A DNA stretch of 64,000 bases from an uncultured Chlorobiota bacterium (GTDB lineage Bacteria; Bacteroidota; Ignavibacteria; UBA10030; UBA6906), in assembly GCA_900696645.1 (NCBI GenBank), contig CAADGV010000007.1:259029-323028 (forward strand). The letters are read 5' to 3'. A program made the translations under genes and the position numbers. The notes under the pieces were generated by a model. The model saw only the letters and a program-made list of their open reading frames with translations. It searched no databases and was not told the origin of the DNA. Within the stretch, counting starts at the first letter, position 1. Each line of letters begins with the position of its first letter. Shown in pieces: positions 29,005 to 50,954 of the stretch.

Positions 29005-29094
29005 TGATTGTCGTATTGTGCACAGGTGACAACTATTGTACATTTGTTCAAAATACAATTTGCCAACACTTGTTCAATATTGCGCACACGATTC

Positions 29095-30770: not shown

Positions 30771-32201
30771 ATGTCAAGGGGGAAAATTTTAATCGTCGAC
30801 GACGAGGCAATACTTACTGAGAGCTTACAGAACATTCTGTCGTCAACGGGATATGATGTGACATCGTGTCTTCAAGGGGAGGAGTTTCTCTCCATGCTAA
30901 CGTCTGTAAATCCGGATCTCATTCTACTCGACATCTTCATGGGGAAAGTGAACGGCCTTCAGTTATTGCGGAAGATGAAGGAGGAGGGCAACGACATCCC
31001 CGTTCTTATGATGACCGGACATGCCGATGTCGGCCTTGCTGTTGAGGCCATGAAGGAAGGCGCCTTGGACTTTGTGCTGAAGCCCTTCGAGCTTGCACAT
31101 CTCAGCGTGCTGATAGAGAAGGCGATGGAGCAATCGCAGTTGAAGCGAAAAGTCAAGGTCTTGCAGTCAGAGCTTGAAGAGCAGCGACAGCGCAGCGGAA
31201 TCATAGGAAAAAGCCCGGCACTTCACAGAGTTCTCGATACGGCAGAGAAGCTTGCACAAAGCGACAACACAACAGTTCTGTTGGAGGGTGAGAGCGGCAC
31301 CGGGAAAGAGTTGTTGGCACGTTTTATCTACCAAAAAAGCCCGCGTGCCGATAAGGCATTTATCACGGTGAACTGCGGCGCGATTCCGAAAAACCTTGCC
31401 GAGAGTGAGTTCTTCGGGTACGAAAAGGGAGCGTTCACCGGTGCGACTGATAAAATGCGTCAGGGGAAATTCGAGCTTGCAGACGACGGAACAATCTTCC
31501 TCGATGAAATCGGCGAGCTATCATTGGACATGCAGGTGAAACTGCTTCGTGTTCTCGAAGATCGCCGGTTCTACCGGTTAGGCGGAACACGGGAATTGAG
31601 TGTGAATGTTCGCGTCATTGCAGCATCCAACAGAGATCTTGCACGGGAGGTACAGGAGGGAAGATTCCGTGAAGATCTGTTCTATCGCTTGAATGTTGCG
31701 TCAGTCAAAGTTCCTCCGTTGCGGGAACGCATTGAGGATATCGGGGTTATCTCGTATGCCTTCCTTCAGGAATTCAGCAAGAAATTCAGCAAGGAAACAC
31801 CGAAGCTGTCCGATGATGCGCTTTCACTGTTGCAGAGTCTTCAATGGAAGGGCAACATTCGAGAACTGCGAAACGCCATCGAGCGTGTTGTGTTGCTCAC
31901 CAGCGGACCGCTGCTCACGGTTGAACATTTCGCTTTTCTGGATGACGGGCTGGCAAAAACCGTGAATGGCGGCGGGAACGGGAAGGCATATCGCCTGGAA
32001 ATCCCGAGTTCGGGAGTGTCGATGGGTCAGGTGGTGAGAGATCTGATTCTAAAAACACTCGTTATCACGAACGGCAACCAGGTTCATGCTGCAAAAATTC
32101 TCGGCCTTACGCGATCGAAACTTCGATATAGAATGGATCAATTAGGCATTCACCCTGATCAGCGAAGTTACCGGATAGAGGAGAATGAAGTTGTAGACTA
32201 A
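30771..32201 (+). CDS. NtrC-family sigma-54-dependent response regulator
   Basis: 476 residues: receiver with Asp54 (LILLDIFMG), a linker, an AAA+ domain with Walker A GESGTGKE (~172), the sigma-54-contacting GAFTGA loop (~220) and Walker B (TIFLDEIGEL), and a Fis-type helix-turn-helix (NQVHAAKILGLTRSKLRYRMDQLGI). An intact GAFTGA means it can activate sigma-54 promoters. Sigma-54 type promoters are present before flgB, before 34696 and possibly before flagellin 2, so it is a good candidate for the flagellar master activator (inference). Confidence 0.94.
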   Translation: MSRGKILIVDDEAILTESLQNILSSTGYDVTSCLQGEEFLSMLTSVNPDLILLDIFMGKVNGLQLLRKMKEEGNDIPVLMMTGHADVGLAVEAMKEGALDFVLKPFELAHLSVLIEKAMEQSQLKRKVKVLQSELEEQRQRSGIIGKSPALHRVLDTAEKLAQSDNTTVLLEGESGTGKELLARFIYQKSPRADKAFITVNCGAIPKNLAESEFFGYEKGAFTGATDKMRQGKFELADDGTIFLDEIGELSLDMQVKLLRVLEDRRFYRLGGTRELSVNVRVIAASNRDLAREVQEGRFREDLFYRLNVASVKVPPLRERIEDIGVISYAFLQEFSKKFSKETPKLSDDALSLLQSLQWKGNIRELRNAIERVVLLTSGPLLTVEHFAFLDDGLAKTVNGGGNGKAYRLEIPSSGVSMGQVVRDLILKTLVITNGNQVHAAKILGLTRSKLRYRMDQLGIHPDQRSYRIEENEVVD

Positions 32202-34471: not shown

Positions 34472-34645
34472 ACCTGACCGGCCCGCAACCCGGACCGGAC
34501 ATTGATTCCCATCTTAGTGGCACCGAAAGAAGCCAGGTGGCTAGTATTGTACAGCGTTTCTTCTTCTGATCCGCCCACCCGTGATATTCTCTGCACTTTC
34601 TCTGCACATCTCGCCGGTTTTCAGTTGGTTTCCTGTGTGTTGTAA

Positions 34646-34660
34646 TGGCATGTAGTTTGC
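34646..34660 (+). promoter_or_regulatory. sigma-54 promoter of the 34696-38965 signalling cluster
   Basis: TGGCATG-TAGT-TTGC, with GG (34647-34648) and GC (34659-34660) exactly 10 bp apart; only one base of the core departs from TGGCACG-N4-TTGC. The predicted start is ~34672, about 24 bp before the ATG at 34696. It would drive the tightly packed genes that follow. Confidence 0.65.
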
Positions 34661-34695
34661 CGCAACGGTTGTGAAACAACAGGTGAACTGACTAC

Positions 34696-34923
34696 ATGCA
34701 TGTACCCGGGTTCTTCAAGCGGTGCTCACTGTGCGGCACGGAGTGGACTTCAAAAGAAGATTTCCTTGCCGACAGGGATGTTCAACTCCAGGGATATCAG
34801 TGGGATAGTGTACGTGTGAAGAACGGCATGCCTTCCGAAGGAATGCTGGTTTTTACCCATCGTACAACAGCGTGTGGAACGTCAATCACCATTTCAGCAC
34901 GTCAATTCCGCAGAGAAAAATAG
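34696..34923 (+). CDS. small cysteine-containing protein, unknown function
   Basis: 75 residues. The N-terminus has CSLCGTEWTSKEDF, a CxxC knuckle as in zinc ribbons, and a single further Cys lies at TACGTS, so a complete four-Cys site is not present in one chain. A related one-CxxC arrangement is common in small response-regulator-associated proteins, but I cannot name this family. It is the first gene after a good sigma-54 promoter and is 27 bp before the next gene. Confidence 0.6.
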   Translation: MHVPGFFKRCSLCGTEWTSKEDFLADRDVQLQGYQWDSVRVKNGMPSEGMLVFTHRTTACGTSITISARQFRREK

Positions 34924-34950
34924 CGGATTGTTACATTCATCGGACTTCTA

Positions 34951-35298
34951 ATGGGCAGACTCAACTTAGACGAAATCTCACCCGGAATGATCCTCGCTTC
35001 CGACGTATTGGACAGGAGCGGAAGAGTACTACTGAAAACCGGTCTCCAGGTAACCGAAAAACACCTGACAATCCTCAAACAGTGGGGGATAACCGATGCG
35101 GATATTCTTGGCGTAGACCGTGACGAAATCAACGCAAAGACTATCGAGAGCTTTGACAAAGATGTTCTGACCGCATGTGAGACGGAGAAGCGTGAGTTGT
35201 TTCATCATGCAGATATGGCTCACCCGATCAATCAGGAACTCTTTCGGCTTTCCGTGCTTCGTTCAATGAAGAGAAAGGCAGGGGTTGCCACAACATGA
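34951..35298 (+). CDS. stand-alone HD-GYP-type N-terminal domain protein
   Basis: 115 residues. LDEISPGMILASDVLDRSGRVLLKTGLQVTEKHLTILKQWGI resembles the conserved module that precedes HD-GYP domains in cyclic-di-GMP phosphodiesterases (L..l.pGM.la.dv....GrvLL..G..lte..l..L..wgi). Here it stands alone with a short helical tail. Its stop overlaps the start of the HDOD gene (ATGA), so the two products are made together and may work as a split two-domain unit. No enzymatic residue is visible. Confidence 0.65.
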   Translation: MGRLNLDEISPGMILASDVLDRSGRVLLKTGLQVTEKHLTILKQWGITDADILGVDRDEINAKTIESFDKDVLTACETEKRELFHHADMAHPINQELFRLSVLRSMKRKAGVATT

Positions 35299-36137
35299 TA
35301 ACGAGTCCAAGTGATCTGCTGAAAGGTTACGTCGAACTCTCTTCTCTTCCGACAGTATTCATACGCATTAATGAGGCTGTCAACAATCCGCGTTCATCCA
35401 TGAACGATATCGGAAAAATTATCAGCGAGGATGCCGGACTTACGGCACGCCTGCTCATGGTGGTCAACAGCGCCTTCTTCAACTTTCCGCAGCGGATTGA
35501 ATCGATTACAAAAGCCATTGGAATTGTCGGGACCCAACAGCTGCGCGATCTGGCGCTTGCAACGTCCATTATCAAGCTCTTCAAGGGCATCCCGTCCGAT
35601 TTGGTGGATATGGAGAAATTCTGGAAGCACAGCGTCGCAGTCGGAATTGCGGCAAGAACGCTCGCTACGCTTCACAGGGAGGCAAACATCGAGCGGTTCT
35701 TTGTTGCAGGCATCCTTCACGATATCGGCCGGCTTGTGATGTATGTGAAGATTCCCGATCTCTCCCGCGAGGCATTGCTACGCGCAAGAAAGAACAACCA
35801 ACTGCTGTATGTAACTGAAACGGAAGTGATTGGCTTCGATCATGCTGCAGTCGGGCGCGCCCTCATGCAAATCTGGAAACTCTCGGCCTATCAGGAGGAA
35901 GTTGTAGGATTTCATCATAACCCCGGTCTTGCTACCCGATTTCCGGTCGAAACAGCCATCGTGCATGTTGCTGATATTCTTGCCCACGGCATGGGCTTCG
36001 GAAGCAGCGGTGAACAATACGTTCCGCCGCTAAATGCTGAAGTGTGGGAACGTCTTTCATTGCAGGTAAGCGTTCTTGCCCCGGCATGTGAACAGATTGA
36101 CCGCCAGTTTGATGATGCGGTGAAGATTATTCTTTAG
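35295..36137 (+). CDS. HDOD-domain protein
   Basis: 280 residues. The HDOD pattern is clear: LPTVFIRINEAVNNPRSSMNDIGKIISEDAGLTARLLMVVNSAFFNFPQRI, then KAIGIVGTQQLRDLALATSI, AGILHDIGRLVMY and VGFHHNP. HDOD domains resemble HD hydrolases but usually lack full catalytic sites; here HD is retained in LHDIG. They often act as signalling adaptors and are frequent near chemotaxis and flagellar genes. It is translationally coupled to the preceding gene and followed within 9 bp by the hybrid kinase. A related HDOD gene lies at 61588. Confidence 0.88.
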   Translation: MITSPSDLLKGYVELSSLPTVFIRINEAVNNPRSSMNDIGKIISEDAGLTARLLMVVNSAFFNFPQRIESITKAIGIVGTQQLRDLALATSIIKLFKGIPSDLVDMEKFWKHSVAVGIAARTLATLHREANIERFFVAGILHDIGRLVMYVKIPDLSREALLRARKNNQLLYVTETEVIGFDHAAVGRALMQIWKLSAYQEEVVGFHHNPGLATRFPVETAIVHVADILAHGMGFGSSGEQYVPPLNAEVWERLSLQVSVLAPACEQIDRQFDDAVKIIL

Positions 36138-36146
36138 ACGAAGCAC

Positions 36147-38393
36147 ATGAATCCGCAGAATTCACATCACCAAATCCACGCACCGCTTTCCGTTGAGGTT
36201 GTGGATCAGATGAAAAATCTCGAGGAGCGTATTGTCTACCTTGAGGAGGTAAACCGCTGGAATCTCGATGCCCTTGATATCGTTGCCTCGATGGGCGATT
36301 TGCACACAACTGCCCATGTGGATTGGGAGGCGCAGGAGATTCTCGGTGCAACGCGGCAGTATGTTCTTCGCCTCATGCGTTTCCACACTGTGGCATTTCT
36401 GATGGTGAACGATGAGACTGCCGAGTTTGATATTGTTGACTGTGAGCCCGCGGATCAGAGGTCGGCCATTCAGAAGGAGATAGCGCACCAAACAACTCAG
36501 GGAACATTTGCGTGGGCGCTGAACAACAACCGGGCGGTGACGTTCGGTATGCAGCAGTCCGGACATTCGTTGATGCTGCATCCCATCGCAACTCGCGACC
36601 GGGTACTTGGAATGTTCGTCGGTGTGTTGGATGAACGAACCGGACAGGTTGTTGATGGAACTTTGAACCTTCTGTCGATTCTTCTCCTTATTACTGCCAA
36701 CACGCTTGAAAACTCAGCCCTGTACCGCAAAATCAATGAACACAACAAGAACCTTGAGGCCTTGGTTCAGGAGAGAACAAGGGAACTTGAACAGGCTGTG
36801 CACGAGGCACAGGCAGCCACATTAGCGAAGAGTCAGTTTCTTGCGAACATGAGTCATGAAATCCGTACACCCATGAACGGCGTGCTCGGCCTTGCTGAAC
36901 TCCTTCTCGATACCGATTTGGATTCCGTGCAGAGGGATTACGCTCAAACAATTCACTCAAGCGGCGACTCTCTTCTGACCATCATTAACGACATTCTCGA
37001 CTTCTCCAAGATTGAAGCGAACAAGATGTCGCTTGAGCGCATTGACTTCGATCTACACCAGATAGTCGGTGATACCGTGGATTTGTTCGCCCGCAAAGCG
37101 GAGACGCGAGGAGTGCGTGTTGTCGGGATTGTCAATGATAATGTTCCGATTGCCGTTAAGGGCGATCCGGTTCGACTGCGCCAGATCATATCAAACCTTC
37201 TCGGCAACGCCGTGAAGTTTACAAATAACGGAAATATTGTTGTACGGGCGGAATGTGAGGAAGGGCAAGGTCCGGGAATTCGCGTCCGGTTTACCGTAAG
37301 CGATTCGGGTATAGGAATTCCCGAAGAGATTCAGAAAACACTGTTTCAGCCCTTCACACAAGCCGATGGCTCAACAACCCGCAAGTACGGCGGCAGCGGT
37401 CTTGGGCTTGCGATATGCAAACAACTCGTCGAGCTCATGGGCGGAACGATTGGCGTTGCGAGCGAGGCCGGGAGGGGGAGTACATTCTGGTTCTCGGTTG
37501 TATTCGAGAAACCGTCGTCGAGTATCGTGTCAACTGTTGAGGTGGGGAAAACATCCAAGCCCAAAGCAAACCTCACACTTCCGCATGGTATTCAGGTTCT
37601 TCTTGTGGAAGACAACGTCGTTAATCAAAAAGTGGCGATGCGGATGCTGCAGAAGATGGGCTGTGTGCCCGATGTTGCCTCGAACGGGCGGGAGGCTGTC
37701 GAGGCTGTTGCAAACAAAGTGTATGATGTCGTTCTGATGGATTGCATGATGCCAGAAATGGATGGGTTCGATGCGACAATCGCGATTCGAAAATCCGAGC
37801 AGCCGGGACGTCGCACCATTATCTTGGCTATGACGGCGAGCATTCTGCAGAGTGAACAAGATCGCTGTTTCAGCGTCGGTATGGATGATTACGTGGCAAA
37901 GCCTGTCAGAATGGGTCTGCTGCACTCCGTTATTTCGAAACATCTTGAGGAAAGAGAAAAATCAATCGGGCATTCGCCGACTGAAGAACAGATCGCCATC
38001 CCATTCTCGAACGCTCCTGAATCTGGCATCAACGATATTCTTGAAAAATCAAGGCTTGAAGAGCTGTACGAACTCAGCGATGGAGCGGACGCATTGCTTG
38101 TTGAGTTGCTCGAGATGTTTCGTGTTGATGGACCCGCCCGGCTTGAGGAATTGCGGGCAGCAGTTGCCGCGAACGACATGATTGCAACGCGCATGGCCGC
38201 GCATGCCCTTAAAGGAAGCAGCAGAAATCTCGGAGCGACCCAACTTGCCGAATACTGTCACGAACTTGAGTCTGCGTCTCAACGGGGGGCAATTCCGAAT
38301 GCCGAGGAACTTCTGGCAAGTATTGAGAACGAAATCACGCGAGTTATGCGCGTTAGTGAACAGTTTCAATCCAATGAAAGGACTACTTCATGA
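36147..38393 (+). CDS. hybrid histidine kinase: GAF / HisKA / HATPase / receiver / Hpt
   Basis: 748 residues, cytoplasmic. Order: short coiled lead, GAF-like sensor (~45-195), a second coiled segment, HisKA with [12 protein letters not shown] (His237), HATPase_c ([25 protein letters not shown]), receiver with Asp532 ([13 protein letters not shown]), and a C-terminal Hpt domain with [12 protein letters not shown] (His686). This is a complete four-step phosphorelay in one chain. The receiver gene at 38390 overlaps its stop and is the likely final acceptor or partner. Confidence 0.93.
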
Positions 38394-38965
38394 AGATACT
38401 GACAGCCGACGATGATGCCGGCTCAAGAGCAATTCTGTCACGTGTCCTCAAATCCCTCGGCCACGACGTTGTTGAAACAAAGGATGGAAATGAAGGCTGG
38501 GGAACCTACCGCGTCGGTAATTTTCAGCTTGTCATCTCTGATTGGATGATGCCCGGCATGAACGGCATTGAGTTTTGCAAACTGGTTCGGCAAGATACCC
38601 GGCCGAAGTACACATACATCATCCTTCTTACGTCGTTGGAAGGCAAGGAAAAGTATCTCGAGGGAATGGAAGCAGGTGCTGATGACTTCATCAGCAAGCC
38701 GTTTGATCGTGACACGCTTGCTGCCCGGCTTCGTGTAGCGGAACGCATACTCAGCCTTCAGGCGGAAGTGAAGCAACTTGAGGGATTGTTACCCATTTGC
38801 GCCTACTGCAAGAAAATCAAAGATGACGAAAACCATTGGCAGCATATGGAGAGTTACATCTCACGACGAACGGAAGCGAACTTTTCCCATGGTATTTGTC
38901 CGGATTGCTATCAAAAACACATGGTCCCGCAATTGCAAGAACTTCGTAAGATACGCAATGGTTGA
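38390..38965 (+). CDS. response regulator with C-terminal CxxC...CxxC tail
   Basis: 191 residues overlapping the hybrid kinase by 4 bp (ATGA). Receiver: DDD at 7-9, phospho-acceptor Asp51 ([13 protein letters not shown]), Lys in DDFISKPF. A short coiled segment leads to a ~55-residue tail with [18 protein letters not shown] and [13 protein letters not shown], a recurrent module with two CxxC pairs that could bind a metal. It lies 167 bp before the flgB promoter region. The output of the tail is unknown. Confidence 0.88.
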
Positions 38966-39070
38966 GAGTTCTCTGCAGATGCGCGATAGTAGCCACCCCG
39001 CGCCTTCGCATTCCGGTTGCGCGTTTCATGTTTGCGGCTTTTGGGAGCCACACAAGCAATCCGGGAATCT

Positions 39071-39085
39071 TGGCACTGGGGTTGC
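39071..39085 (+). promoter_or_regulatory. sigma-54 promoter of the flgB flagellar operon
   Basis: TGGCAC-TGGGG-TTGC with GG (39072-39073) and GC (39084-39085) exactly 10 bp apart, followed by A: a full match to TGGCAC-N5-TTGCA. The predicted start is ~39097, 36 bp before the flgB ATG. It implies class II control by an NtrC-type activator, one of which is encoded at 30771. Confidence 0.8.
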
Positions 39086-39132
39086 ACGTCAGTGCCCTGA
39101 ATACTGTATTGTGATTGAAAAGGGAATGTGTT

Positions 39133-39561
39133 ATGCGACTTTTTGATTCGACCAATATCCCTCTGTTGGGCAAGGCCCTCGATGTCTATGCCCTGCGGCA
39201 GAAAGTTATCGCATCCAATCTGGCTAACATCACCACGCACGGGTACAAGAGCCAGAACGTCTCGTTCGAAGAGCATCTTGCGTCTGCATCGCAGGATTCA
39301 GCCGTGAAAGGGGCAACCACGAACGACAAGCACATCAAAGTAGGTGGCGCAACCGCGATGGTCGATGTTCAGCCTCAAGTTCACGACACTGCGCGCAACA
39401 ATCCTCCGAAATACAACGAAATGTCAAGCGGCTTCAATGACGTGGATATTGATATGGAGATGGCCGAGCTGGCAAAGAATCAAATACGCTTCAAGTTCGG
39501 TTCACGGCTGTTGGGCGATACATTCAAGGGGATTCAAAAGGCTATTCGAGGTACGTTATGA
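39133..39561 (+). CDS. flgB: flagellar basal-body rod protein FlgB
   Basis: 142 residues from the ATG at 39133, chosen because MRLFDSTNIPLLGKALDVYALRQKVIASNLANITTHGYK matches the FlgB N-terminus and AGGGA precedes it; an in-frame TTG at 39115 would add six residues. C-terminal MEMAELAKNQIRFKF..RLL is the conserved rod helix. FlgB is a proximal rod subunit in the periplasm, exported by the type III apparatus. First gene of the main flagellar run; overlaps flgC by 4 bp. Confidence 0.94.
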   Translation: MRLFDSTNIPLLGKALDVYALRQKVIASNLANITTHGYKSQNVSFEEHLASASQDSAVKGATTNDKHIKVGGATAMVDVQPQVHDTARNNPPKYNEMSSGFNDVDIDMEMAELAKNQIRFKFGSRLLGDTFKGIQKAIRGTL

Positions 39562-40055
39562 AAGTTGAGAAACTCTTTGCCGGACTCAACGTGAGTGCGC
39601 AGGGTTTGAGTGCGCAACGAAAACGCATGAACGCGATTGCCAACAATATCGCCAATGCAGAAACAACCCGAACCGAAGACGGAACCCCCTACCGGCGGAA
39701 GATGGTGACTGTTGAGTCTGCTTCCGGTCAGCCGTTTACCGATACGTTCCATAAGACCGGACTGCAACTTGACACGACCAATGCATCACATCTATCACCC
39801 GGTGGATTCCAGTTCAGAGCAGAAGGGAACCTCCCCGGCAGTGTGGAAGCCGCTGAAGCGGAAGACTCGTCCGACTTCAAATTGATTCACGATCCCACAC
39901 ATCCTGATGCGGACGAGAACGGCTATGTGAAAATGCCGAACGTCAACATTATCACTGAAATGGTCGACATGATGTCTGCCTCCCGTGCATACGAGGCAAA
40001 TATCACGGTTATCAATGCACAAAAGCAAATGGCAAAAGACAGCCTGGAGATTTGA
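39558..40055 (+). CDS. flgC: flagellar basal-body rod protein FlgC
   Basis: 165 residues, slightly longer than the usual ~140. N-terminal LNVSAQGLSAQRKRMNAIANNIANAETTRTEDGTPYRRK and C-terminal PNVNIITEMVDMMSASRAYEANITVINAQKQM are hallmark rod-protein ends. The start overlaps the flgB stop (ATGA), which couples their translation. It assembles with FlgB, FlgF and FliE in the proximal rod. Confidence 0.95.
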   Translation: MKVEKLFAGLNVSAQGLSAQRKRMNAIANNIANAETTRTEDGTPYRRKMVTVESASGQPFTDTFHKTGLQLDTTNASHLSPGGFQFRAEGNLPGSVEAAEAEDSSDFKLIHDPTHPDADENGYVKMPNVNIITEMVDMMSASRAYEANITVINAQKQMAKDSLEI

Positions 40056-40057
40056 CG

Positions 40058-40354
40058 ATGAAGGTTACAGATATTCGCAGCACACCGGCTCAACTGCCGG
40101 TTCAAAAAAAGAACACACGGCCTGCCGGTGAAGAATCGTTCGAAGCTACGCTGAAGAATATTCCGGCAGAAGCAACGCGTGCGGGTGAGACAAAGCAAAC
40201 ACTTTCACCGGCAGCACTCACGCAGCCGGAACAAGCTTTCTTTGCGCGGCTGTTCCCCGATGCCGCGGACGAAGTGCGGTCGTACAATCCATACCGGCGT
40301 GATCAGACTTCGCTTACGGTACAACTCGGAATTATTGTTGACAGACGAGGATAA
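40058..40354 (+). CDS. small unknown protein between flgC and fliE
   Basis: 98 residues from the ATG at 40058. It is polar and probably mostly disordered in the first half (MKVTDIRSTPAQLPVQKK), with a more structured stretch EQAFFARLFPDAADEVRSYNPYRR near the end. I do not recognise a family. It sits tightly between flgC (2 bp) and fliE (5 bp), so it is co-expressed with proximal rod parts and may be an accessory rod or export factor. Confidence 0.7.
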   Translation: MKVTDIRSTPAQLPVQKKNTRPAGEESFEATLKNIPAEATRAGETKQTLSPAALTQPEQAFFARLFPDAADEVRSYNPYRRDQTSLTVQLGIIVDRRG

Positions 40355-40359
40355 GGCAT

Positions 40360-40659
40360 ATGCAGGAACTTCAATTACTCCCCGAACTGAGCGGGACACG
40401 CAATCACAATTCGGTGAACAAGCTTCTCAAGGAAGCAAACACTTCCTTCAGCGATACGCTCAACCAGGCTGTTCGTGATGTGAATACATTGCAGGGCGAG
40501 GCAGGGAAAGCGGTTCAACGCATGGTGAGCGGCGAGGAAACGGATATTCATAACGTCATGATTGCCGTCGAGAAGGCAAAGACAAGCTTCGAGTTGCTGA
40601 TGGAAGTCCGCAACAAGACCATTGAGGCGTACAGGGAAATCATGAGGATGCAGGTATAA
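40360..40659 (+). CDS. fliE: flagellar hook-basal body protein FliE
   Basis: 99 residues, usual size. SFSDTLNQAVRDVNTLQGEAGKAVQRMVSGEETDIHNVMIAVEKAKTSFELLMEVRNKTIEAYREIMRMQV is a clear FliE C-terminal pattern. FliE links the FliF MS-ring to the rod. It lies 1 bp before fliF. Confidence 0.94.
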   Translation: MQELQLLPELSGTRNHNSVNKLLKEANTSFSDTLNQAVRDVNTLQGEAGKAVQRMVSGEETDIHNVMIAVEKAKTSFELLMEVRNKTIEAYREIMRMQV

Positions 40660-40660
40660 C

Positions 40661-42271
40661 ATGGCCGAGTTTCCCCAGCAAGTCCGCTCACAGCTGATCG
40701 ATCTGACGCGACGTCTATCCATTGCGCAGAAAGTTGCCCTGGGCGCCGTTACGTTTGGCGTTATCGTCGGACTCATCGTCCTAGTCACATTTGTGAACCG
40801 TCCGACGTATGGCACGCTCTTCAGCAATCTTGCGCCACAGGATGCTTCCAAGATTGTGGAGAAGCTGCAAGAGAAGAAAGTCGAATACAAATTGGAGGAC
40901 AACGGAAAAACAATTGTCGTTCCGAAAGATAAGATTTACGATGTTCGTCTTGCTTTAGCCGGCGAAGGTCTGCCACAATCGAGCATTGTCGGATACGAGA
41001 TTTTTGACAGGACAAACCTTGGTGTTTCCGATTTCGTTCAGAAAGTCAATTATCGCCGTGCCTTGGAAGGCGAAATTGCCCGAACCATTCTTCAGATTGA
41101 GGAAGTGGAAGGGGCCCGCGTTCACATTGTTGTGCCGGAAAAGGCTCTCTTCAAGGATGATGAAAAGCCGACGACTGCATCAATTGTGTTGAAGCTGAAG
41201 TCGGGGAAGCCGCTACGTCGTGAAAATGTTCAAGGCATTGTTCATCTCGTGTCCAGCAGCATAGAAGGCCTTGATCCATCCAATGTTACGATTGTTGATT
41301 CACGCGGTACAATGCTTTCCGATGTTGAGAAGGGAAATTCGCTTGCAGCGAGAACATCCACACAATATGAACTGCAACAACGGGTTGAGAACTATCTCTC
41401 ACAAAAGGCGCAAACACTGCTGGAGGGAGTTGTAGGTCCGGGAAATGCACGCGTTCAGGTTTCGGCAGAGCTTGATTACCGGCAGGTGGAACGAACCCTC
41501 GAGCAGTACGACCCCGATAAGACGGTTGTTCGCAGCGAACAGGTAACCGAGGAGAAGTCTGTTGTGAACGATTCGTCGTCCCCCTCCACCCGGAATAACA
41601 CCGTGACGAACTACGAGGTGAATAAATCAATCGAACATATCATCGAAAATGTTGGTGGAATCAAGCGGCTCACCATTGCGGGGATCGTCAACGATGTTCC
41701 CCGTCAGGTGGAAAAGGAAGGGCAGACGGTCACGGAGTTTCAATCCCGAAAACCGGAAGAAATGAACCAACTCGCTGAAATTGTCAAGCGTGCGGTTGGG
41801 TTTGATGAGAAGCGGAACGATGAAGTCACCCTTGTGAATTTGCCTTTTGGCGGCAACGTCGAAAGTGAAGGCTTCCTCTACAAGGATGCACCGGGGAATA
41901 ACTGGACTGAGATATTGCAGGACGATTCGTACGGCAAGTTGCTAATGCTTCTTGCTATGCTTGGCGCAGTGGGGATGATGTGGGTGCTGTTGAGCAAGTT
42001 TCGCGGCAGCAGTGATCCTGAATTAGAGGAGATGCTTGGTACCCGCGTTGATGTTCTTTCCGGCAATGCAGGAAAGTTGGGGGCGGCGCCATCGCAGCAA
42101 GGTGCTCTCGCAGGAAGAAGTCAACGCAGGCAACTTGCTGCTGCAGGTAACACGCTCCTCTCGGATGAAGCGCAGATTCGCGAAGAGCGACAGCAGCGCA
42201 TAGCCGAGTATATTGCCAACCGACCCAAAGAGGCCGGAAGGTTGCTGAAAGTATGGTTGGTGGACAACTGA
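40661..42271 (+). CDS. fliF: flagellar MS-ring protein FliF
   Basis: 536 residues, usual size. Two membrane segments (~22-45 and ~420-440) flank the large periplasmic ring-building region with YGTLFSNLAPQDASKIVEKLQE, LPQSSIVGYEIFD and RALEGEIARTILQIEEVEGARVHIV. The cytoplasmic C-terminal tail ends in the FliG-binding helix (PKEAGRLLKVWL). It forms the inner-membrane MS ring on which the rotor and export gate are built. Confidence 0.96.
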   Translation: MAEFPQQVRSQLIDLTRRLSIAQKVALGAVTFGVIVGLIVLVTFVNRPTYGTLFSNLAPQDASKIVEKLQEKKVEYKLEDNGKTIVVPKDKIYDVRLALAGEGLPQSSIVGYEIFDRTNLGVSDFVQKVNYRRALEGEIARTILQIEEVEGARVHIVVPEKALFKDDEKPTTASIVLKLKSGKPLRRENVQGIVHLVSSSIEGLDPSNVTIVDSRGTMLSDVEKGNSLAARTSTQYELQQRVENYLSQKAQTLLEGVVGPGNARVQVSAELDYRQVERTLEQYDPDKTVVRSEQVTEEKSVVNDSSSPSTRNNTVTNYEVNKSIEHIIENVGGIKRLTIAGIVNDVPRQVEKEGQTVTEFQSRKPEEMNQLAEIVKRAVGFDEKRNDEVTLVNLPFGGNVESEGFLYKDAPGNNWTEILQDDSYGKLLMLLAMLGAVGMMWVLLSKFRGSSDPELEEMLGTRVDVLSGNAGKLGAAPSQQGALAGRSQRRQLAAAGNTLLSDEAQIREERQQRIAEYIANRPKEAGRLLKVWLVDN

Positions 42272-42308
42272 GAACCGGGTTCGTGCGGATCAAACAACAA
42301 TTCATAAC

Positions 42309-43346
42309 ATGAGAAAAGATAGTTCAACTCCGGCACTTGGTACAAAGACACAGAGTAACAAGCAGAAGGCAGCACTCTTGCTGTTGTCATTGGATCTTGG
42401 AACGGCAACAACGCTCATGCGGACGCTGACGCAGGCCGAAATCGAGGATCTTACGGTGGAAATCACCCGTTTGAAAGGTATTCCATCAGCTGAGACAGAT
42501 AAGGTGATGGAAGAGTTTCAATCACTCATCAAAGCGCAGGAATATCTTGTTGATGGCGGCGCCGACCAGGCGCGCTCACTCTTGGAAAAATCATTGGGGA
42601 ACGAACGTGCTGCTTTCACGCTTGACCGCGTGAAGGCGGCGACAACACTGCGAGGATTCAACAATCTCAAGAAGGCAGACGCTTATCAAGTTGCCAATTT
42701 CCTGCAAAAGGAACATCCGCAGACCATTGCATTGATACTCTCGAATCTCCGGCTCGAACAAACCGCCGAAGTGTTGAGCCAGCTTCAGCCTGATTTGAGA
42801 AATGATGTGATCTTTAGAATGGCAACCTTGGGCAAGGTAGCGCCGTCACTTATCGCGGAAATGGAGCAAGCACTGGAAGCCGTTGCACAAACCGATATAA
42901 CAGCGAGTATAAGCGCACTGGGCGGCCCGAAGTCGGTGGCCTCCGTTCTGAATCGTGTCGGGACGGAGAAGGCGAAGGAGATCATGGAACACCTCGAGAT
43001 TCGTGAACCGCAACTTGCATCCGAAATAAAAAGCCTGATGTTCTTGTTTGAAGACATTATCTATGTTGACGACAGGGGCATTCAACGTGTATTGCGTGAG
43101 GTCGATAAGAAAGATCTCGCATTGGCACTCAAAGTTGTTGACGATCAACTGAAAACAAAAATCCTGTCCAACATGTCCGAGCGGGCGCAGGAACTGTTGC
43201 GCGAAGAGTTGCAATATATGGGACCGGTGCGTCTGAAAGAGGTTGAGGCAGCTCAAGCACGCATCATTGCGGTGGTGAAGAAACTGGAAGAAACAGGTGA
43301 GATTATCATCGCGGGAAGAGGCGGAACGGAGGAACTCGTTGTTTAG
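42309..43346 (+). CDS. fliG: flagellar motor switch protein FliG
   Basis: 345 residues, usual size. N-terminal KQKAALLLLSLDLGTATTLMRTLTQAEIEDLT, middle EHPQTIALILSNLRLEQTAEVLSQLQPDLRNDVIFRMA, and C-terminal FLFEDIIYVDDRGIQRVLREVDKKDLALALK, which carries the charged helix that contacts the stator. It sits on FliF and generates torque. The fliH gene starts inside its last codons. Confidence 0.96.
   Translation: MRKDSSTPALGTKTQSNKQKAALLLLSLDLGTATTLMRTLTQAEIEDLTVEITRLKGIPSAETDKVMEEFQSLIKAQEYLVDGGADQARSLLEKSLGNERAAFTLDRVKAATTLRGFNNLKKADAYQVANFLQKEHPQTIALILSNLRLEQTAEVLSQLQPDLRNDVIFRMATLGKVAPSLIAEMEQALEAVAQTDITASISALGGPKSVASVLNRVGTEKAKEIMEHLEIREPQLASEIKSLMFLFEDIIYVDDRGIQRVLREVDKKDLALALKVVDDQLKTKILSNMSERAQELLREELQYMGPVRLKEVEAAQARIIAVVKKLEETGEIIIAGRGGTEELVV
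43328..43341 (+). promoter_or_regulatory. fliH: ribosome-binding site that fixes a TTG start for fliH
   Basis: GGAGG (43328-43332), a 6-base spacer and TTG (43339-43341), all inside the 3' end of fliG. The resulting 8-bp overlap is more plausible than the 50-bp overlap implied by an upstream start at 43297. Confidence 0.7.
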
Positions 43347-44049
43347 AACTGTCAAAATTCACACCCCGGCGGGCCGTGTGCGCCTGCTGGATCGGAACGG
43401 CCGCCGCCGGACGATATTGCCGTTTGCCCCGTTTCCTGATGAATCGGTTCAGGTACAGCGACCCGAGGCCACCCCTGAAGTTGAACAGGCTCCGGTTCAG
43501 GTTGCAGAGTCGGATACGTTTGACATCGAGCAACGGTTGAATGATGAATACAAAGCGGGATTTGAAGAGGGAAGACGATTCACAGAAAAATCCCTGCGTG
43601 ATGAGTTGACTACGCAGTTGGCTAAGAATCACGCTGTCGTAGAGCAACTTACCGGAAACATTATACGCGAGTACGAGCGATTGCAACGTGAGGCCGAGCG
43701 GGGTGTTGTTGCGCTTGCACTCGGTATCGCCGAAAGAATCGTGAAACGTGAAGTTAGGTTGGACAATGAAATGGTTGTGCGGCAAATCCATGAAGCAACA
43801 AAACGGATTATTGGCGTTGAAAGGATCAAGATTCGGGTGAATCCGGCTGATGAAGAATTCGTGAGGGAGCACCGTACCCAGATTCTCGCTTCGAGCGATG
43901 CCGTACGCGATGTTGCTGTAGAACGTGACGAAACGATTGAACGGGGCGGCTGCATTCTTGAAAGCGAATCGGGGAATGTTGATGCACTCATTGCAACCCA
44001 ACTGGAACGCATCGGTCTGGCCCTGCTTGGCGATCAAACGAAGGAATAA
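43339..44049 (+). CDS. fliH: flagellar export ATPase regulator FliH
   Basis: 236 residues from the TTG at 43339. The N-terminal ~70 residues are variable; then a long coiled coil (DIEQRLNDEYKAGFEEGRRFTEKSLRDEL...EYERLQREAERGVVALALGIAERIVKREV) and a C-terminal globular part (IKIRVNPADEEFVREHR, ERGGCILESESGNVDALIATQLERI) typical of FliH. FliH binds and restrains the FliI ATPase and docks export substrates. It overlaps fliI by one base. Confidence 0.92.
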   Translation: MFRTVKIHTPAGRVRLLDRNGRRRTILPFAPFPDESVQVQRPEATPEVEQAPVQVAESDTFDIEQRLNDEYKAGFEEGRRFTEKSLRDELTTQLAKNHAVVEQLTGNIIREYERLQREAERGVVALALGIAERIVKREVRLDNEMVVRQIHEATKRIIGVERIKIRVNPADEEFVREHRTQILASSDAVRDVAVERDETIERGGCILESESGNVDALIATQLERIGLALLGDQTKE

Positions 44050-45386
44050 TGGCATCAGCAAGTCAACATATCGAATCCGGCAGATTTGAGCCGTACTTCA
44101 CAAGACTGCATCACGCCGATGTCGTGAAAGTAAACGGACGCGTGTCGCAGGTAATCGGCCTTGTTATCGAATCGACAGGCCCCAACTGCTTTCTCGGTGA
44201 AGTGTGTAACGTAAAAGCACGCAACGGCGAAGATCTTTGTATGGCAGAAGTTGTCGGGTTTAGGGGAAATCGTGTGTTGTCGATGGTGCTGGGCGATGCC
44301 GGCCGCGTGAGCCCCGGAAGTGAGATTGTTGCAACAGGCCATCCGCTGACGGTTCCGGTGAGCAATAAGTTGCTCGGCCGCGTCATCGATGGTATGGGGA
44401 GACCCATTGACGGCAAGGGGCCGATTGATGCCGTCGAGAGACGCTCAATACATGCAACTCCGCCGAGTCCGCTTGAGCGAAAACGCATAACAAAACCAAT
44501 CGCAACGGGTATCCGGTCAATCGATACGTTGAAGACATGTGGTATTGGACAACGGGTTGGAATTTTTGCGGGGAGCGGTGTAGGAAAAAGCGTGACGTTA
44601 GGCATGATTGCCCGCTATGCAAGCTCGGACGTAAATGTCATTTGTCTTGTTGGCGAGCGGGGGCGCGAGGTGGGAGAATTTCTAGACAAAGAGCTTGGCG
44701 AAGAGGGGCTCCGCCGGTCAATTGTAGTTGTGGCTACAAGCGATCAGGCTGCTCTCATCCGAATCAAGGCGGCGTTCATGGCAACAACAATAGCGGAATA
44801 TTTCCGCGACCAGGGGTTGAATGTCGTTCTCATGATGGATTCGCTTACGCGGCTGGCAATGGCGCAACGTGAGGTCGGCCTTGCGATCGGTGAACCGCCG
44901 ACAACGAAGGGATACACTCCATCCGTATTTGCCATGCTGCCGAAGCTTCTTGAACGGGCGGGGAACGCAAAGAAGGGAAGCATTACGGGGTTGTACACCG
45001 TGCTGGTTGAGGGGGACGATATGAATGAGCCTGTCGCGGATAGCGTGCGCTCCATCCTCGACGGGCATATCGTTCTCTCACGACGGCTTGCTTCGGCGGG
45101 ACATTATCCCGCGGTGGATGCATTGGAAAGTGTCAGTCGTGTTATGCCCGCAATTACTACCGGCGAGCATCAACGGGCGGCTGCACGCATGCTCGATCTG
45201 ATGGCAACCTATCGCGAGGCAGAGGACTTGATTAACATCGGAGCGTATGTAAAGGGAAGCAACCCGAAAATTGATGAATCTCTGAAAATGCGTGAGATGA
45301 TCCGGGCATTTCTCCGACAGCAATCGGATGAGCATGAGGATCTCGACACCAGCATCAGCTTGTTACGTGAAATGATGATGGTATAA
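44049..45386 (+). CDS. fliI: flagellar type III export ATPase FliI
   Basis: 445 residues, usual size. F1-ATPase-beta-like with Walker A GIFAGSGVGKS (Lys180), Walker B VVLMMDSLTRLAMAQREVGLAIGEPP, and C-terminal MREMIRAFLRQQ. It is a cytoplasmic hexamer that energises loading of export substrates, regulated by FliH and FliJ encoded on either side. Its ATG overlaps the fliH stop. Confidence 0.97.
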   Translation: MASASQHIESGRFEPYFTRLHHADVVKVNGRVSQVIGLVIESTGPNCFLGEVCNVKARNGEDLCMAEVVGFRGNRVLSMVLGDAGRVSPGSEIVATGHPLTVPVSNKLLGRVIDGMGRPIDGKGPIDAVERRSIHATPPSPLERKRITKPIATGIRSIDTLKTCGIGQRVGIFAGSGVGKSVTLGMIARYASSDVNVICLVGERGREVGEFLDKELGEEGLRRSIVVVATSDQAALIRIKAAFMATTIAEYFRDQGLNVVLMMDSLTRLAMAQREVGLAIGEPPTTKGYTPSVFAMLPKLLERAGNAKKGSITGLYTVLVEGDDMNEPVADSVRSILDGHIVLSRRLASAGHYPAVDALESVSRVMPAITTGEHQRAAARMLDLMATYREAEDLINIGAYVKGSNPKIDESLKMREMIRAFLRQQSDEHEDLDTSISLLREMMMV

Positions 45387-45398
45387 TCCGGAGCAAGA

Positions 45399-45827
45399 AT
45401 GGCAAAACCAGCGTCGCGGTTCAAGACAGTTGTGCGTGTAAAGAAGCAGCAGGAGAAAATTGCCCAGCAGCAGTTGGTGCAGATTGAACATGCACATCTG
45501 AAAGAGCGCGAGGAACTCCTTCGCCTTCATGAAACAAGGGAAGAAGCCGTCGATGGGTCTCTGCACCAAGGCAGGACGCGGGCGACCGACCTGCAAATGC
45601 AGAGGGCGTTTATTGTCAAGCTGAACGGGCAGATTCATCAACAGTCGTCCAAAGTTAACGACATACTTGTGAAAGCGAATGCCAAGCGCGAGGAACTGAC
45701 AGAACGTGCACGCGCCCGTCAGATCGTTGAAAAGCTTGAAGAAAAGAAATCTGTTGAAGCGGCAAAAACTCTTGATCGCAAGGAGCAGGAAAATACTGAT
45801 GAAGTCGCAAACCGAAGGTCCAGGTAA
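45399..45827 (+). CDS. fliJ: flagellar export chaperone FliJ
   Basis: 142 residues, almost entirely coiled coil (VKKQQEKIAQQQLVQIEHAHLKEREELLRLHETREEAV...). Sequence conservation in FliJ is low; size, the long antiparallel coil and the position directly after fliI support the call. FliJ forms the stalk of the export ATPase. Confidence 0.85.
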   Translation: MAKPASRFKTVVRVKKQQEKIAQQQLVQIEHAHLKEREELLRLHETREEAVDGSLHQGRTRATDLQMQRAFIVKLNGQIHQQSSKVNDILVKANAKREELTERARARQIVEKLEEKKSVEAAKTLDRKEQENTDEVANRRSR

Positions 45828-45836
45828 CATACGATC

Positions 45837-46403
45837 ATGTCCGGCACAAAACAATACATAATCATCTTTCTCTCATCCCTCGCATCGGTCACGACACTTA
45901 TGGTCTTGACGGCAATGGTGGAACCGAGGTTCTTTTCTCTCGTTCCCGGCACGTTTCCGCCCGATTCAACTCAGCAGCACCGTGCCGGAATATCGGATTC
46001 AATCGCAACTTCCGGCTATTCAATGACCTCGATGGGTGATAGTTCCGCTCCAACTCCCCGACGGCCCGACACGGCTAATGTACAAGCGACCACTGTTGCA
46101 GCGAATGGAGGGATAAACCAACTACCTGAGAAAGTGAAGGGAACCGTTTCGGAACTCAAGGGTAATACATCGATGACAATACCGGCACCGTTGGACACAC
46201 TGGAAGAGGCGGAGCTGAGGAAGATGGTGCAGATCTTTGAATCGATGGAGCCCGAGGTTGCCGCCAGAATTTTGATGAAAATGGATGAACAGGCTATTAG
46301 CAAGGTCATTGCGAGAATGAAAAGCCGTCAAAGTGCAAAGATCCTCGCGACATTGGATCCGGAACAAGCTGCTCGAATACTGAAAGGGAAGAGAAACTCA
46401 TGA
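45837..46403 (+). CDS. motE: MotE-like flagellar protein (MgtE_N-type domain)
   Basis: 188 residues. An N-terminal membrane segment (~8-28, IIIFLSSLASVTTLMVLTAMV), a low-complexity Ser/Thr/Pro-rich linker, and a C-terminal helical domain MVQIFESMEPEVAARILMKMDEQAISKVIARMKSRQSAKILATLDPEQAARIL, which matches the MgtE N-terminal/MotE pattern. MotE-type proteins act as chaperones for the stator or basal body and commonly sit between fliJ and fliK, as here. It overlaps fliK by 4 bp. Confidence 0.82.
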   Translation: MSGTKQYIIIFLSSLASVTTLMVLTAMVEPRFFSLVPGTFPPDSTQQHRAGISDSIATSGYSMTSMGDSSAPTPRRPDTANVQATTVAANGGINQLPEKVKGTVSELKGNTSMTIPAPLDTLEEAELRKMVQIFESMEPEVAARILMKMDEQAISKVIARMKSRQSAKILATLDPEQAARILKGKRNS

Positions 46404-48220
46404 TTGGATTACTGCAAGGTTTGTTTTCCGGTACGGTGAAGCTGCCGGTAACGTCGTCGGAGAAATGCGGCGAGGATCGGGTAGAGGCTGCTTACACTGA
46501 ACCTGCTGAAGAAGGAACATCATTTTTTGCTATGCTGGTTCAGTTGTTTACTCCTCAATCCTCAAAGCAAGCGGAAGTCGTTGGAATCGTGACAGTGGAA
46601 ACTACTGACGAAATGTTTTCTTACGCGACAATGCCGGAAGGCAATGAGCAAAGAGGTGAAGTGTCATCCAACGTCCGATCGCTCGATACGCTCGTGGCGA
46701 AGATGACACCCGTTGTGTCGACAAGCGAAAGTGTTGAACCGACATCCGGGATTGTGGATGCTCCTCAAGCATCGAACACTCAGGTCGGGTACCGGCGTGC
46801 CCAGAGTTCTGCTCAATCTCACCTTGTTGATAACGGGGAACAACGTGAACAGAGAGCGCCTGTTGTTCATGGGGTCGGACAGATGCATCGCGCAACAGAT
46901 CTACAAAAGCCCGCGGCTATGCAAAACAATACCGGGCCTCAACCCGATCCGACAGTTCGATCGGATCATGATGTTTCGCAGGAATCGCCAACTCAAAACG
47001 TAGTCATGGGCGGCCCAAATAGCAGACCTGCAACGGAGATTATTGAGCGAAGAAGTGAAGGATTTCCCCTCAATTGGAACAAAACCGGATCAAGCGAGAT
47101 TGTCAGGGATTCTGTACGGGAAACCGGAAGACAAGAGGTTGCCGAAGGATTGCGGACCCTGTCACCCGAGGTTGGCAGACCCTCCGTTCGGGAAGCCGGA
47201 AGTCAAGGAGTTGCTGAAGAGTTACAGATTCTGACCAACAAATTCTCAACCGTTGGGATTCTGAAGAGGGAAACACCGGAGAGTACTGCCCGAATGAATA
47301 TTCCGGCTGAGTATTCTGAAGATATCTCCACTGACGAAACAGAACGAGTTCAAACTCGAGATGGTGAGAATACTAATCATGAAAACAAGGCTGGGCTACA
47401 ACAATCACCATCACGCAGTAATCTGCAGGCTGTGAAGCAGGCAGGCGTCGATCAGGCGCAGATAGATCAGCCTTCTGTGATGATTCCGGAGCCGGTATCG
47501 CCTAACAAAGCAAATCCGGTCAATCTTCCGGGACAGCCAACAGTGGGCGTTGCAGAGACAAAATTTGCGAAGGAAGATTCCGAGGCAAACACAGAAAATG
47601 ATACACAGCTCGACCCCGGCCTTCAAGAGAAAGGCAAAACGCCACCAGAAGCAAAGAGTGTGCAGGCTTCAAATCAAGATATGAGACCTGAAGTCGTAGG
47701 CCGGCCTGTTTCTGCCGAGTTCCAACAGATACCGATTCACAGCAGGCCGGACACGCCAAACTCATTTCAGGCTGCTGAAAAGCCGTATGTTCCGGTTCAA
47801 CTTCCCCGGGATTTCGCGCAGAATCTCATGGTACGAATCTCGGATGAGTTGAAAGCACATATCGAAGGGAAATCATCGGAAGTGCGAGTCGTGATGAAGC
47901 CGGAATCGATGGGACAGTTGTCCCTCCGCGTTGCAATGGAGGACGGAAGACTTGTTGCGATCATGGATGTGAGCAAGACGGCTGTAAAGATCGCGCTGGA
48001 GGCCCAGTTGCCTCAATTGCGTGAGGCGCTTGCAGCACAAGGAATCAATGTCGAACGATTCGATATTCTATCGGGATCAACAACTCAGTTTGAGCGTCAT
48101 GGTGAGGGCAGCGCCTTTCATCGGCAGCAGCACTCCCGGCGTCAGATGGATGTGGATGTAGCCGAACGGTACGATACCGTGAAGTATCTCGGCTACAACA
48201 CGGTCGAATACATTATCTAA
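46400..48220 (+). CDS. fliK: hook-length control protein FliK
   Basis: 606 residues, long for the family. The first ~460 residues are low-complexity, Gln/Ser/Pro-rich and poorly conserved, as expected for a molecular ruler. The C-terminal ~100 residues form the Flg_hook/export-switch domain: LKAHIEGKSSEVRVVMKPESMGQLSLRVAMEDGRLVAIMDVSKTAVKIALEAQLPQLREALAAQGI. Two adjacent 24-residue repeats lie at ~238-285. FliK measures the hook and switches export specificity through FlhB. Confidence 0.88.
   Translation: MIGLLQGLFSGTVKLPVTSSEKCGEDRVEAAYTEPAEEGTSFFAMLVQLFTPQSSKQAEVVGIVTVETTDEMFSYATMPEGNEQRGEVSSNVRSLDTLVAKMTPVVSTSESVEPTSGIVDAPQASNTQVGYRRAQSSAQSHLVDNGEQREQRAPVVHGVGQMHRATDLQKPAAMQNNTGPQPDPTVRSDHDVSQESPTQNVVMGGPNSRPATEIIERRSEGFPLNWNKTGSSEIVRDSVRETGRQEVAEGLRTLSPEVGRPSVREAGSQGVAEELQILTNKFSTVGILKRETPESTARMNIPAEYSEDISTDETERVQTRDGENTNHENKAGLQQSPSRSNLQAVKQAGVDQAQIDQPSVMIPEPVSPNKANPVNLPGQPTVGVAETKFAKEDSEANTENDTQLDPGLQEKGKTPPEAKSVQASNQDMRPEVVGRPVSAEFQQIPIHSRPDTPNSFQAAEKPYVPVQLPRDFAQNLMVRISDELKAHIEGKSSEVRVVMKPESMGQLSLRVAMEDGRLVAIMDVSKTAVKIALEAQLPQLREALAAQGINVERFDILSGSTTQFERHGEGSAFHRQQHSRRQMDVDVAERYDTVKYLGYNTVEYII
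47111..47254 (+). repeat. 72-bp tandem duplication inside fliK
   Basis: Two in-frame units of 24 codons begin at 47111 (SVRETGRQEVAEGLRTL) and 47183 (SVREAGSQGVAEELQIL). The copies have diverged at several positions, so the duplication is not recent. It lies in the ruler part of FliK. Confidence 0.7.
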
Positions 48221-48243
48221 CAACTAATCAGAAAGGAGACACT

Positions 48244-48930
48244 ATGCCGATCTACCAGGCGACAGCAGTCGGTCCGCCGCAAATTGGTACATCGACGGTG
48301 AACAAAGGGGCTATGGGAAAGGATGACTTTCTCAGGCTTCTCACAAACCAGCTCCGCTTCCAGGATCCGATGAACCCGATGAAGGGGGCGGATTTTGCGG
48401 CGCAGTTGGCGCAGTTCAGCTCGGTTGAGCAGCTTAGCAACATCAGCGCTTCGCTGGAATATAGCATCAACGCAAACTATGTGTTGACGCAGGCAATCAA
48501 CAACGGCCTTTCAGCGGGATTCGTCGGGAAGGAAGTACGCGCAAGCGGCGATACGTTTACTCTGGCTGAGGCGGGTGACGGACTTCGGAGCGCAAAGCTG
48601 GGCTATTCGCTCGGATCGTCAGCAAGTTCCGTTACCGTCAAGATCAAGAATGAACGGGGAGAAGTTGTTCGCACGATGCAGCTTTCGGGCACGAGCAAGG
48701 GCGATAATTCATTCACGTGGGACGGGTTGGATGACGGAGGCGTTGACGTTCCCGGAGGCAAGTACACGTTTTCCATCGAAGCCAAAGATTCAGCCAACAA
48801 GAACATCGATGCGTCTACGTTCTTCTTCGGGAGGGTCTCTTCAGTCCGTTTTACCGCTGAGGGGACGAAGTTCGTCATCAATGGTCAGGAAGTATTCCTC
48901 GGCAATATTCTGGAAATCCTGGAGGGATAA
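48244..48930 (+). CDS. flgD: flagellar hook capping protein FlgD
   Basis: 228 residues. N-terminal GKDDFLRLLTNQLRFQDPMNPMKGADFAAQLAQFSSVEQLSNI is the conserved hook-cap region; the C-terminal part is the FlgD Ig-like/Tudor module (VTVKIKNERGEVVRTMQLSG...FTWDGLDDGGVDVPGGKYTFSI). FlgD caps the growing hook and is removed later. AAAGGAG precedes the ATG. Confidence 0.95.
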   Translation: MPIYQATAVGPPQIGTSTVNKGAMGKDDFLRLLTNQLRFQDPMNPMKGADFAAQLAQFSSVEQLSNISASLEYSINANYVLTQAINNGLSAGFVGKEVRASGDTFTLAEAGDGLRSAKLGYSLGSSASSVTVKIKNERGEVVRTMQLSGTSKGDNSFTWDGLDDGGVDVPGGKYTFSIEAKDSANKNIDASTFFFGRVSSVRFTAEGTKFVINGQEVFLGNILEILEG

Positions 48931-48933
48931 GTC

Positions 48934-49320
48934 ATGGCAGAAACAGTAAACGGTATCAATGTTCCGTTCCTGCCGGTAGGCGGGGTTGACGGGCTGAAGC
49001 AAAAACCGTCGATTCAACTTCCGGTTGAGCGATCGTTCGAAGCGATCTTTCAGAAGGAACTGAGCGAAGTCAAGTTCTCTAAACATGCACAGGAACGCCT
49101 GAACGAGCGCAATATCCAACTTGATCAACATGACCTGTCTCATCTTCACAATGCCATCGAACTGGCAGAGAAGAAGGGCTCACACGATTCGTTGGTGTTG
49201 CTGCGCGACATGGCGTTCATCGTGAGCGTGAAGAACAGAACGGTTGTAACGGCAATGCACGGTGAAAACATGAAGGCGAATGTTTTCACGAACATTGACA
49301 GTGCAGTAATAGCTGGGTAG
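48934..49320 (+). CDS. conserved flagellar operon protein (TIGR02530-like)
   Basis: 128 residues. FQKELSEVKFSKHAQERLNERNIQL, then a helix and AFIVSVKNRTVVTAM near the C-terminus, is the pattern of the small flagellar operon protein found between flgD and flgE in many bacteria. Its biochemical role is not established in this sequence. The HAxxRLxERxI segment resembles the DUF4258 motif of the gene at 12935. Confidence 0.8.
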   Translation: MAETVNGINVPFLPVGGVDGLKQKPSIQLPVERSFEAIFQKELSEVKFSKHAQERLNERNIQLDQHDLSHLHNAIELAEKKGSHDSLVLLRDMAFIVSVKNRTVVTAMHGENMKANVFTNIDSAVIAG

Positions 49321-49335
49321 TACAGTAACTAACAC

Positions 49336-50941: not shown

Positions 50942-50954
50942 TCTGACGCCACAC

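Follow-up and report, generated by a model that had tools for sequence, protein, structure and literature searches.

A conserved, very probable sigma-54 promoter before the flagellar rod genes of an uncultured Ignavibacteria bacterium

We analysed a 64-kb stretch of DNA (the window) from an uncultured bacterium of the Ignavibacteria, in which a -24/-12 site lies directly before the flagellar rod gene flgB. Judged from the sequence, this site, P_flgB, is very probably a genuine sigma-54 promoter from which the rod genes are transcribed. We consider it likely that P_flgB is the working promoter of the flgB run, that a histidine kinase and its activator, acting through an upstream dyad together with RpoN, open it along with a promoter before fliL (P_fliL) and a third one at 34646, and that FliA then serves the flagellins. 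The initial annotation of this DNA had proposed the promoter; its upstream dyad, two further promoters and the conservation throughout the phylum go beyond that proposal.

Results

P_flgB and its surroundings

We found that TGGCACTGGGGTTGCA (TGGCAC-TGGGG-TTGCA, plus strand) matches the pattern TGGCAC-N5-TTGCA exactly and is the sole zero-mismatch match in the window. It also conforms to TGGCAC-N5-TTGCW, and its GG (39072-39073) and GC (39084-39085) show GG-N10-GC spacing. The near-perfect promoter with this exact spacing that had been described in the initial annotation is thus borne out by pattern match at 39071-39086. The flgB ATG at 39133, which is preceded by AAGGG and was taken instead of the TTG at 39115 in the first list of open reading frames, lies 46 nt downstream. 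A transcript would be expected to begin some 12 nt beyond the GC of the -12 element (about 39097) and thus about 36 nt before this ATG; the 36 bp to flgB given earlier holds for this predicted start. The flgB run (Table 1) is probably read as a single transcript. An inverted repeat, GGCACTG...CAGTGC, spans P_flgB in the window and in the relative G001.

When P_flgB was compared with the second promoter, a class-specific 16-bp dyad resembling TGGCTAATATTAGCCA surfaced about 65-110 bp upstream of the sigma-54 site. P_flgB therefore has, by sequence, a candidate enhancer close by; the left half of the window's own flgB dyad is poor. This dyad is overlapped by a weak sigma-70-like site at 38962-38990. 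The overlap would suit an arrangement with two flgB promoters, in which sigma-54 gives a timed burst, a housekeeping promoter or read-through provides basal expression, and the dyad is maybe also a repressor site, but the weakness of the sigma-70-like site makes this arrangement unlikely.

Table 1. Promoter sites, putative enhancer dyads and genes located in the window.
Feature	Coordinates	Strand	Details
Sigma-28 promoter-like site of flagellin 1	23106-23132	+	TAAA-N15-TCCGATAA; flagellin 1 at 23214-24041
Sigma-28 promoter-like site of flagellin 2	24209-24235	+	TAAA-N15-TCCGATAA; flagellin 2 at 24315-25139
Histidine kinase (REC-PAS-HisKA-HATPase), proposed activator partner	29008-30765	+	just upstream of activator; start may be 29095
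NtrC-family activator (REC, AAA+ with GAFTGA, Fis-type HTH), proposed dyad binder	30771-32201	+	
Putative enhancer dyad of third promoter	34538-34553	+	TGGCTAGTATTGTACA; d = 108
Third sigma-54 promoter	34646-34661	+	TGGCATGTAGTTTGCC
Genes after third promoter: 75-aa Cys-rich protein, 115-aa ORF, HDOD protein, hybrid kinase with Hpt, response regulator	34696-38965	+	
Putative enhancer dyad of P_flgB	38980-38995	+	TGCGCGATAGTAGCCA; 91 bp upstream of promoter's first base
Sigma-54 promoter P_flgB	39071-39086	+	TGGCAC-TGGGG-TTGCA; pattern match and conservation
flgB	39133-39561	+	TIGR01396 (NCBIfam FlgB equivalog), 92.5 bits, cut-off 59.05
Remainder of flgB run: flgC, 100-aa ORF, fliE, fliF, fliG, fliH, fliI, fliJ, mgtE-like, fliK, flgD, PF12611 ORF, flgE	39558-50711	+	
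Putative enhancer dyad of P_fliL	50871-50886	+	TGGCCGATAATAGCCA; d = 108
Second sigma-54 promoter P_fliL	50979-50994	+	TGGCATACGGTTTGAC; kept in G001, G006, G007, G013, G029, G035
fliL	51034-51576	+	PF03748, 58.9 bits, cut-off 24.6
fliM, fliN, fliO, fliP, fliQ, fliR, flhB, flhA, flhF, flhG, 80-aa ORF, fliA	51545-61508	+	
fliA (sigma-28)	60741-61508	+	TIGR02479, 209.5 bits, cut-off 189.6

Further putative sigma-54 promoters and sigma-28 sites

A matrix built from flgB dyads only, combined with the sigma-54 matrix, ranks the window sites at 50979 (33.0), 39071 (32.2) and 34646 (28.7) first; the next window site reaches 21.7, the best of 10 shuffles 23.8 and the reversed control 20.5. Sigma-54 sites stand at the rod, hook and export runs (P_flgB and P_fliL), fliA is present as the last gene of the run headed by P_fliL, and sigma-28 sites precede both flagellin genes, with their fixed bases unchanged in G001. 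The full flagellar gene set crosses the window and continues past its end with flgF, G, A, H, I, J, N, K and L, two motAB pairs and fliW.

The 34646 promoter is kept in G001, G002 and G015, and orthologues of the 75-aa Cys-rich protein behind it (34696-34923; no Pfam family above cut-off) follow dyad and -24/-12 pairs in G029 and G051. By sequence, the genes after the pair in G029 look like a chemoreceptor and CheW. A further such pair (L244, the G000:C40:161492 region) stands directly before the gene for a 210-aa membrane protein, for which no Pfam family scored above cut-off.

Three candidates were rejected. A minus-strand open reading frame at 50836-51597 is an artefact antisense to fliL that had hidden this gene. 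A sigma-54-like match at 24150, before flagellin 2, is not kept in G001, and one in G001 itself (L183), ahead of the 16531 glycosyltransferase gene, was dropped because the alignment stops short of it in the window.

The open reading frame at 60502-60744, between flhG and fliA, encodes an 80-aa protein that has two hydrophobic stretches and no Pfam family above cut-off. In Campylobacterota, FlgV occupies this position (PMC10655999).

One member of the window's family, G006 (L055, L248; 94% complete, 410 contigs), has no detected FlgC or FlhA. A single contig (G006:C193) encodes the C-terminal half of FliF, FliG, FliL, FliM, FliN, MotA and MotB, with a dyad and a sigma-54 site before fliL. These genes may represent a rotor-stator that lacks an export apparatus, or else a set that is decaying or incomplete. 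On the first view, the export and rod parts and FlhA appear to be lost from the set, with promoter and dyad still present before fliLMN.

Conservation of the promoter and the dyad

We identified FlgC in 21 of the 60 genomes of the order set, which includes the window's own genome, and FlhA in the same 21. This patchy distribution suggests repeated loss of flagella. One locus (L045) was dropped for lack of upstream DNA, and the -24/-12 site precedes flgB in all 20 informative loci that remain. G001 retains an almost intact promoter within a stretch of 79% identity. The class set covers 43 loci, of 45 class-level matches listed, from other orders of the same class. Where the best match, or the match located together with the dyad, is taken as the site, it lies 395-580 nt before flgC in 42/43; in the exception (L217) the best match lies 828 nt before flgC. 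Among 20 hand-chosen loci from other classes of the phylum (of 37 matches listed), the site lies 409-514 nt before flgC in every case. The site therefore holds the same place in 82 of the 83 informative genomes of the phylum, and the conservation across relatives that had been named as a check on the promoter is found in order, class and other classes alike.

In 20/20 order loci, 43/43 class loci and 19/20 loci of other classes, the site was equalled by no more than 2 of 40 shuffles, counted with a sigma-54 matrix that was relaxed after the order and class sites were known. With the earlier, stricter matrix, p was at most 0.05 in 19/20 order loci and 16/23 class loci. In the order locus that was missed (L049) the true site lies outside the scanned stretch, and among the 23 class loci the flgB start is misplaced in L157 and L163 and uncalled in L158.

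For comparison, 71 control loci were scanned of 80 with titled records (the nine left out mostly had little upstream DNA; L132 and L128 had some). Some control loci duplicate loci of other sets at 100% identity (L046 = L074, L169 = L114). When the loci were grouped by phylum from their record titles, a score of at least 12 was reached by 1/42 loci from distant phyla (L135; mostly Bacillota, with Thermotogota, Spirochaetes and others) and by 19/24 from phyla of the FCB group. All five remaining control loci also scored at least 12. The FCB misses are both Krumholzibacteria loci (L082 and L094), Chitinivibrionales L093, one Zixibacteria locus (L122) and one Ignavibacteria locus (L116). In 5/42 distant loci, at most 2 of 40 shuffles scored as high as the site.

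The dyad was scored apart from the promoter. Each order locus and its genus were left out of training, and class loci were never used for it. In order members a 16-mer resembling TGGCTAATATTAGCCA lies 75-108 bp upstream of the site; p was at most 0.01 in 18/20 loci, and the dyad is weak or missing in L035 and L052. Among the class loci, p was at most 0.01 in 27/43 and at most 0.05 in 34/43, with most dyads at 65-68 bp; in the other nine p exceeded 0.05, though their genomes carry an orthologue of the activator. Outside the class the dyad was found in 1/20 loci. Together with the counts for the promoter, these scores indicate a -24/-12 site that is phylum-wide and a dyad that is characteristic of this class.

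The distances between dyad and promoter fall into groups near 66, 76, 90, 98 and 108 bp (Rayleigh test at 10.5 bp: R about 0.55-0.59, nominal p 0.0002-0.002). These statistics come from related sequences, thinned at genus level for the order set only, where 18 values stayed 18 because all differ, so helical phasing is a hint only. For the order set alone the peak lies at 11.5-12 bp, not 10.5.

A 49-72 aa open reading frame is the first gene after the promoter, before flgB, in 12/20 order loci (L036, L037, L039-L044, L046-L049). It encodes one hydrophobic stretch and a C-terminal end like DDSIGI or NDNPIGI. The frame is absent in the window's genus, and no Pfam family was found for the two examples tested.

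RpoN and the NtrC-family activator

The genome carries one intact copy of rpoN, with the activator-interacting, core-binding and DNA-binding domains all present, so that lack of rpoN, which the initial annotation had named as a ground for refuting the promoter, does not apply. We identified rpoN in 55/60 relatives of the order set, flagellated or not, and its presence alone therefore says little.

The NtrC-family gene that had been noted upstream is intact as well: the protein encoded at 30771-32201 has a receiver domain with the phospho-acceptor Asp, an AAA+ domain with GAFTGA and a Fis-type HTH. In relatives whose contigs reach so far, it belongs to a LuxR-regulator/kinase/NtrC block adjoining flagellin, fliS, fliD and flaG. 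Its orthologues separate clearly by score in the relatives search (at least 500 bits, against 380 for the next protein). GAFTGA occurs in 26/26 orthologues examined, and the recognition-helix stretch (GNQVHAAKILGLTRSKLRYRMDQLGI in the window) is near-identical in most of the 26, diverging more in G023, G028 and G038. The activator scores below the curated NCBIfam cut-offs for FlgR, FlbD, NtrC and AtoC, including 309.2 bits with FlgR (Campylobacter; NF049963) and 343.2 bits with FlbD (NF050807), each against a cut-off of 750.

Activator orthologues are nearly confined to flagellated genomes. They occur in 19/21 flagellated relatives of the order set (counting a partial one in G010) and in 3/39 relatives without FlgC (G003, G005, G006); none was found in flagellated G016 or in G033 (62% complete). 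A second set of 74 genomes gave orthologues in 43/43 flagellated class members, 1/11 FlgC-negative class members (G100) and 0/20 flagellated genomes outside the class. In 21 of the 43, no more than about 17 kb separates activator and flgC on one contig. With 43/43 inside the class and 0/20 outside it, the activator has the same range as the dyad and thus tracks it.

These distributions bear on whether a different NtrC-type protein drives flgB from a real sigma-54 site while the 30771 activator regulates something else. About 18 NtrC-type proteins match in the genome itself, so another one could bind the dyad, and G016 keeps flagella and the dyad although no close orthologue was found in it. 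In genomes outside the class the flgB site persists without the 30771 orthologue, which implies that other activators can serve that promoter. Within the class, the near-confinement of the orthologue to flagellated genomes, its position beside flagellin, fliS and fliD, and its shared range with the dyad stand against such a protein, which we regard as quite improbable.

Frequency of the motif

Across the whole genome (4.2 Mb, 46 contigs) TGGCAC-N5-TTGCA has two exact matches, the other one at G000:C12:66190-66205. With up to one mismatch there are 36/36 matches per strand, against 39/38 in a backwards control; with up to two mismatches the window holds 26, against 22.2 expected. The pattern TAGCCA-N62..92-TGGCAY-N5-TTG, which was written from P_flgB and P_fliL, matches these two in the genome and one place in the backwards control. 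Genome-wide motif counts equal their controls, and we rejected such counts as proof of a promoter. The motif alone lacks genome-wide enrichment, and position and conservation are therefore the evidence for P_flgB.

That the match is luck, with flgB read from a sigma-70-type promoter or by upstream read-through, is very improbable: counts at control level, a same-strand gene (38390-38965) ending 167 nt before flgB, the weak sigma-70-like site noted above (9/12) and the look-alike at 24150, itself probably due to chance, would all fit, but position-specific conservation across order, class and phylum, and the absence of a site of the same score from 41/42 distant loci, strongly disfavour it.

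Discussion

Promoter sites, dyads, intact rpoN and activator genes, their conservation and their co-occurrence are best explained by a flagellar cascade. The histidine kinase would phosphorylate the adjacent activator, which would then bind the 16-bp dyad about 90 bp upstream of P_flgB. By DNA looping the activator would contact the RpoN holoenzyme at P_flgB and P_fliL and promote open complex formation, and P_fliL and the 34646 promoter would be opened through the same dyad type. FliA made from the fliL run would subsequently transcribe the flagellins. We infer this order of expression, as well as one transcript per run.

A control circuit of the Vibrio/Campylobacter type thus appears, by its sequence elements, to exist in this branch too. 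The hierarchy of this kind suggested in the initial annotation stands as far as sites, rpoN, activator, fliA and sigma-28 sites are concerned. Family membership does not, since the activator falls outside the curated FlgR and FlbD families, and 'Vibrio/Campylobacter-like' therefore describes how the circuit would work.

We lean slightly towards the view that the flagellated members of the phylum, and perhaps the wider FCB group, inherited sigma-54 control of flgB from their ancestor, and that the class holding the Ignavibacteria exerts it through a single dedicated, previously undescribed pair of kinase and activator and through a helix-phased dyad of 16 bp. Conservation of the site opens an old question to testing: early flagellar genes may have been under sigma-54 from the start, with later loss in other lineages, or may have come under it more than once. 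The dyad provides a defined DNA target for a named activator, and Stygiobacter electus (strain record, L106) and Melioribacter roseus are cultured relatives.

Flagellar genes under sigma-54 are described in several phyla (Francke, 2011, PMC3162934; Carrera-Reyna, 2025, PMC12316311), and the latter cites the flagellar hierarchy of V. cholerae; the words 'Ignavibacter' and 'flgB' are absent from the main texts of both. M. roseus is reported to be flagellated and motile (PMC3534657), and the searched text of that paper does not mention sigma-54 or rpoN. We found no open-access paper joining Ignavibacteria, flagella and sigma-54, and the open-access papers searched deal little or not at all with flagellar control in the Bacteroidota/FCB branch. 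The kind of circuit is already known; its presence in this branch and the enhancer look new.

Circuits of this type are known from Vibrio, Pseudomonas and Campylobacter. The Vibrio cholerae cascade runs from FlrB/FlrC through sigma-54 to FliA, and FleS/FleR is the Pseudomonas counterpart. Like these systems, the one described here combines a kinase and an NtrC-type regulator with sigma-54 basal body genes, a sigma-28 flagellin and FlhF/FlhG. It differs from them in its phylum, in a kinase with an N-terminal REC domain and in a 16-bp TGGC...GCCA dyad.

In Campylobacter and Helicobacter the cascade is FlgS/FlgR, sigma-54 and FliA. Here too, one kinase-regulator pair would feed sigma-54 rod and hook promoters, with sigma-28 for flagellin. 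Unlike in that cascade, the regulator reaches 309 bits against the 750 of the FlgR model, fliA lies in a sigma-54-headed run and the dyad is upstream. In Caulobacter, FlbD acts at ftr elements. The two systems share an NtrC-type flagellar activator, a dyad enhancer and sigma-54 promoters; they differ in that the activator described here reaches 343 bits against the 750 of the FlbD model, the dyad is another one and the partner kinase is adjacent.
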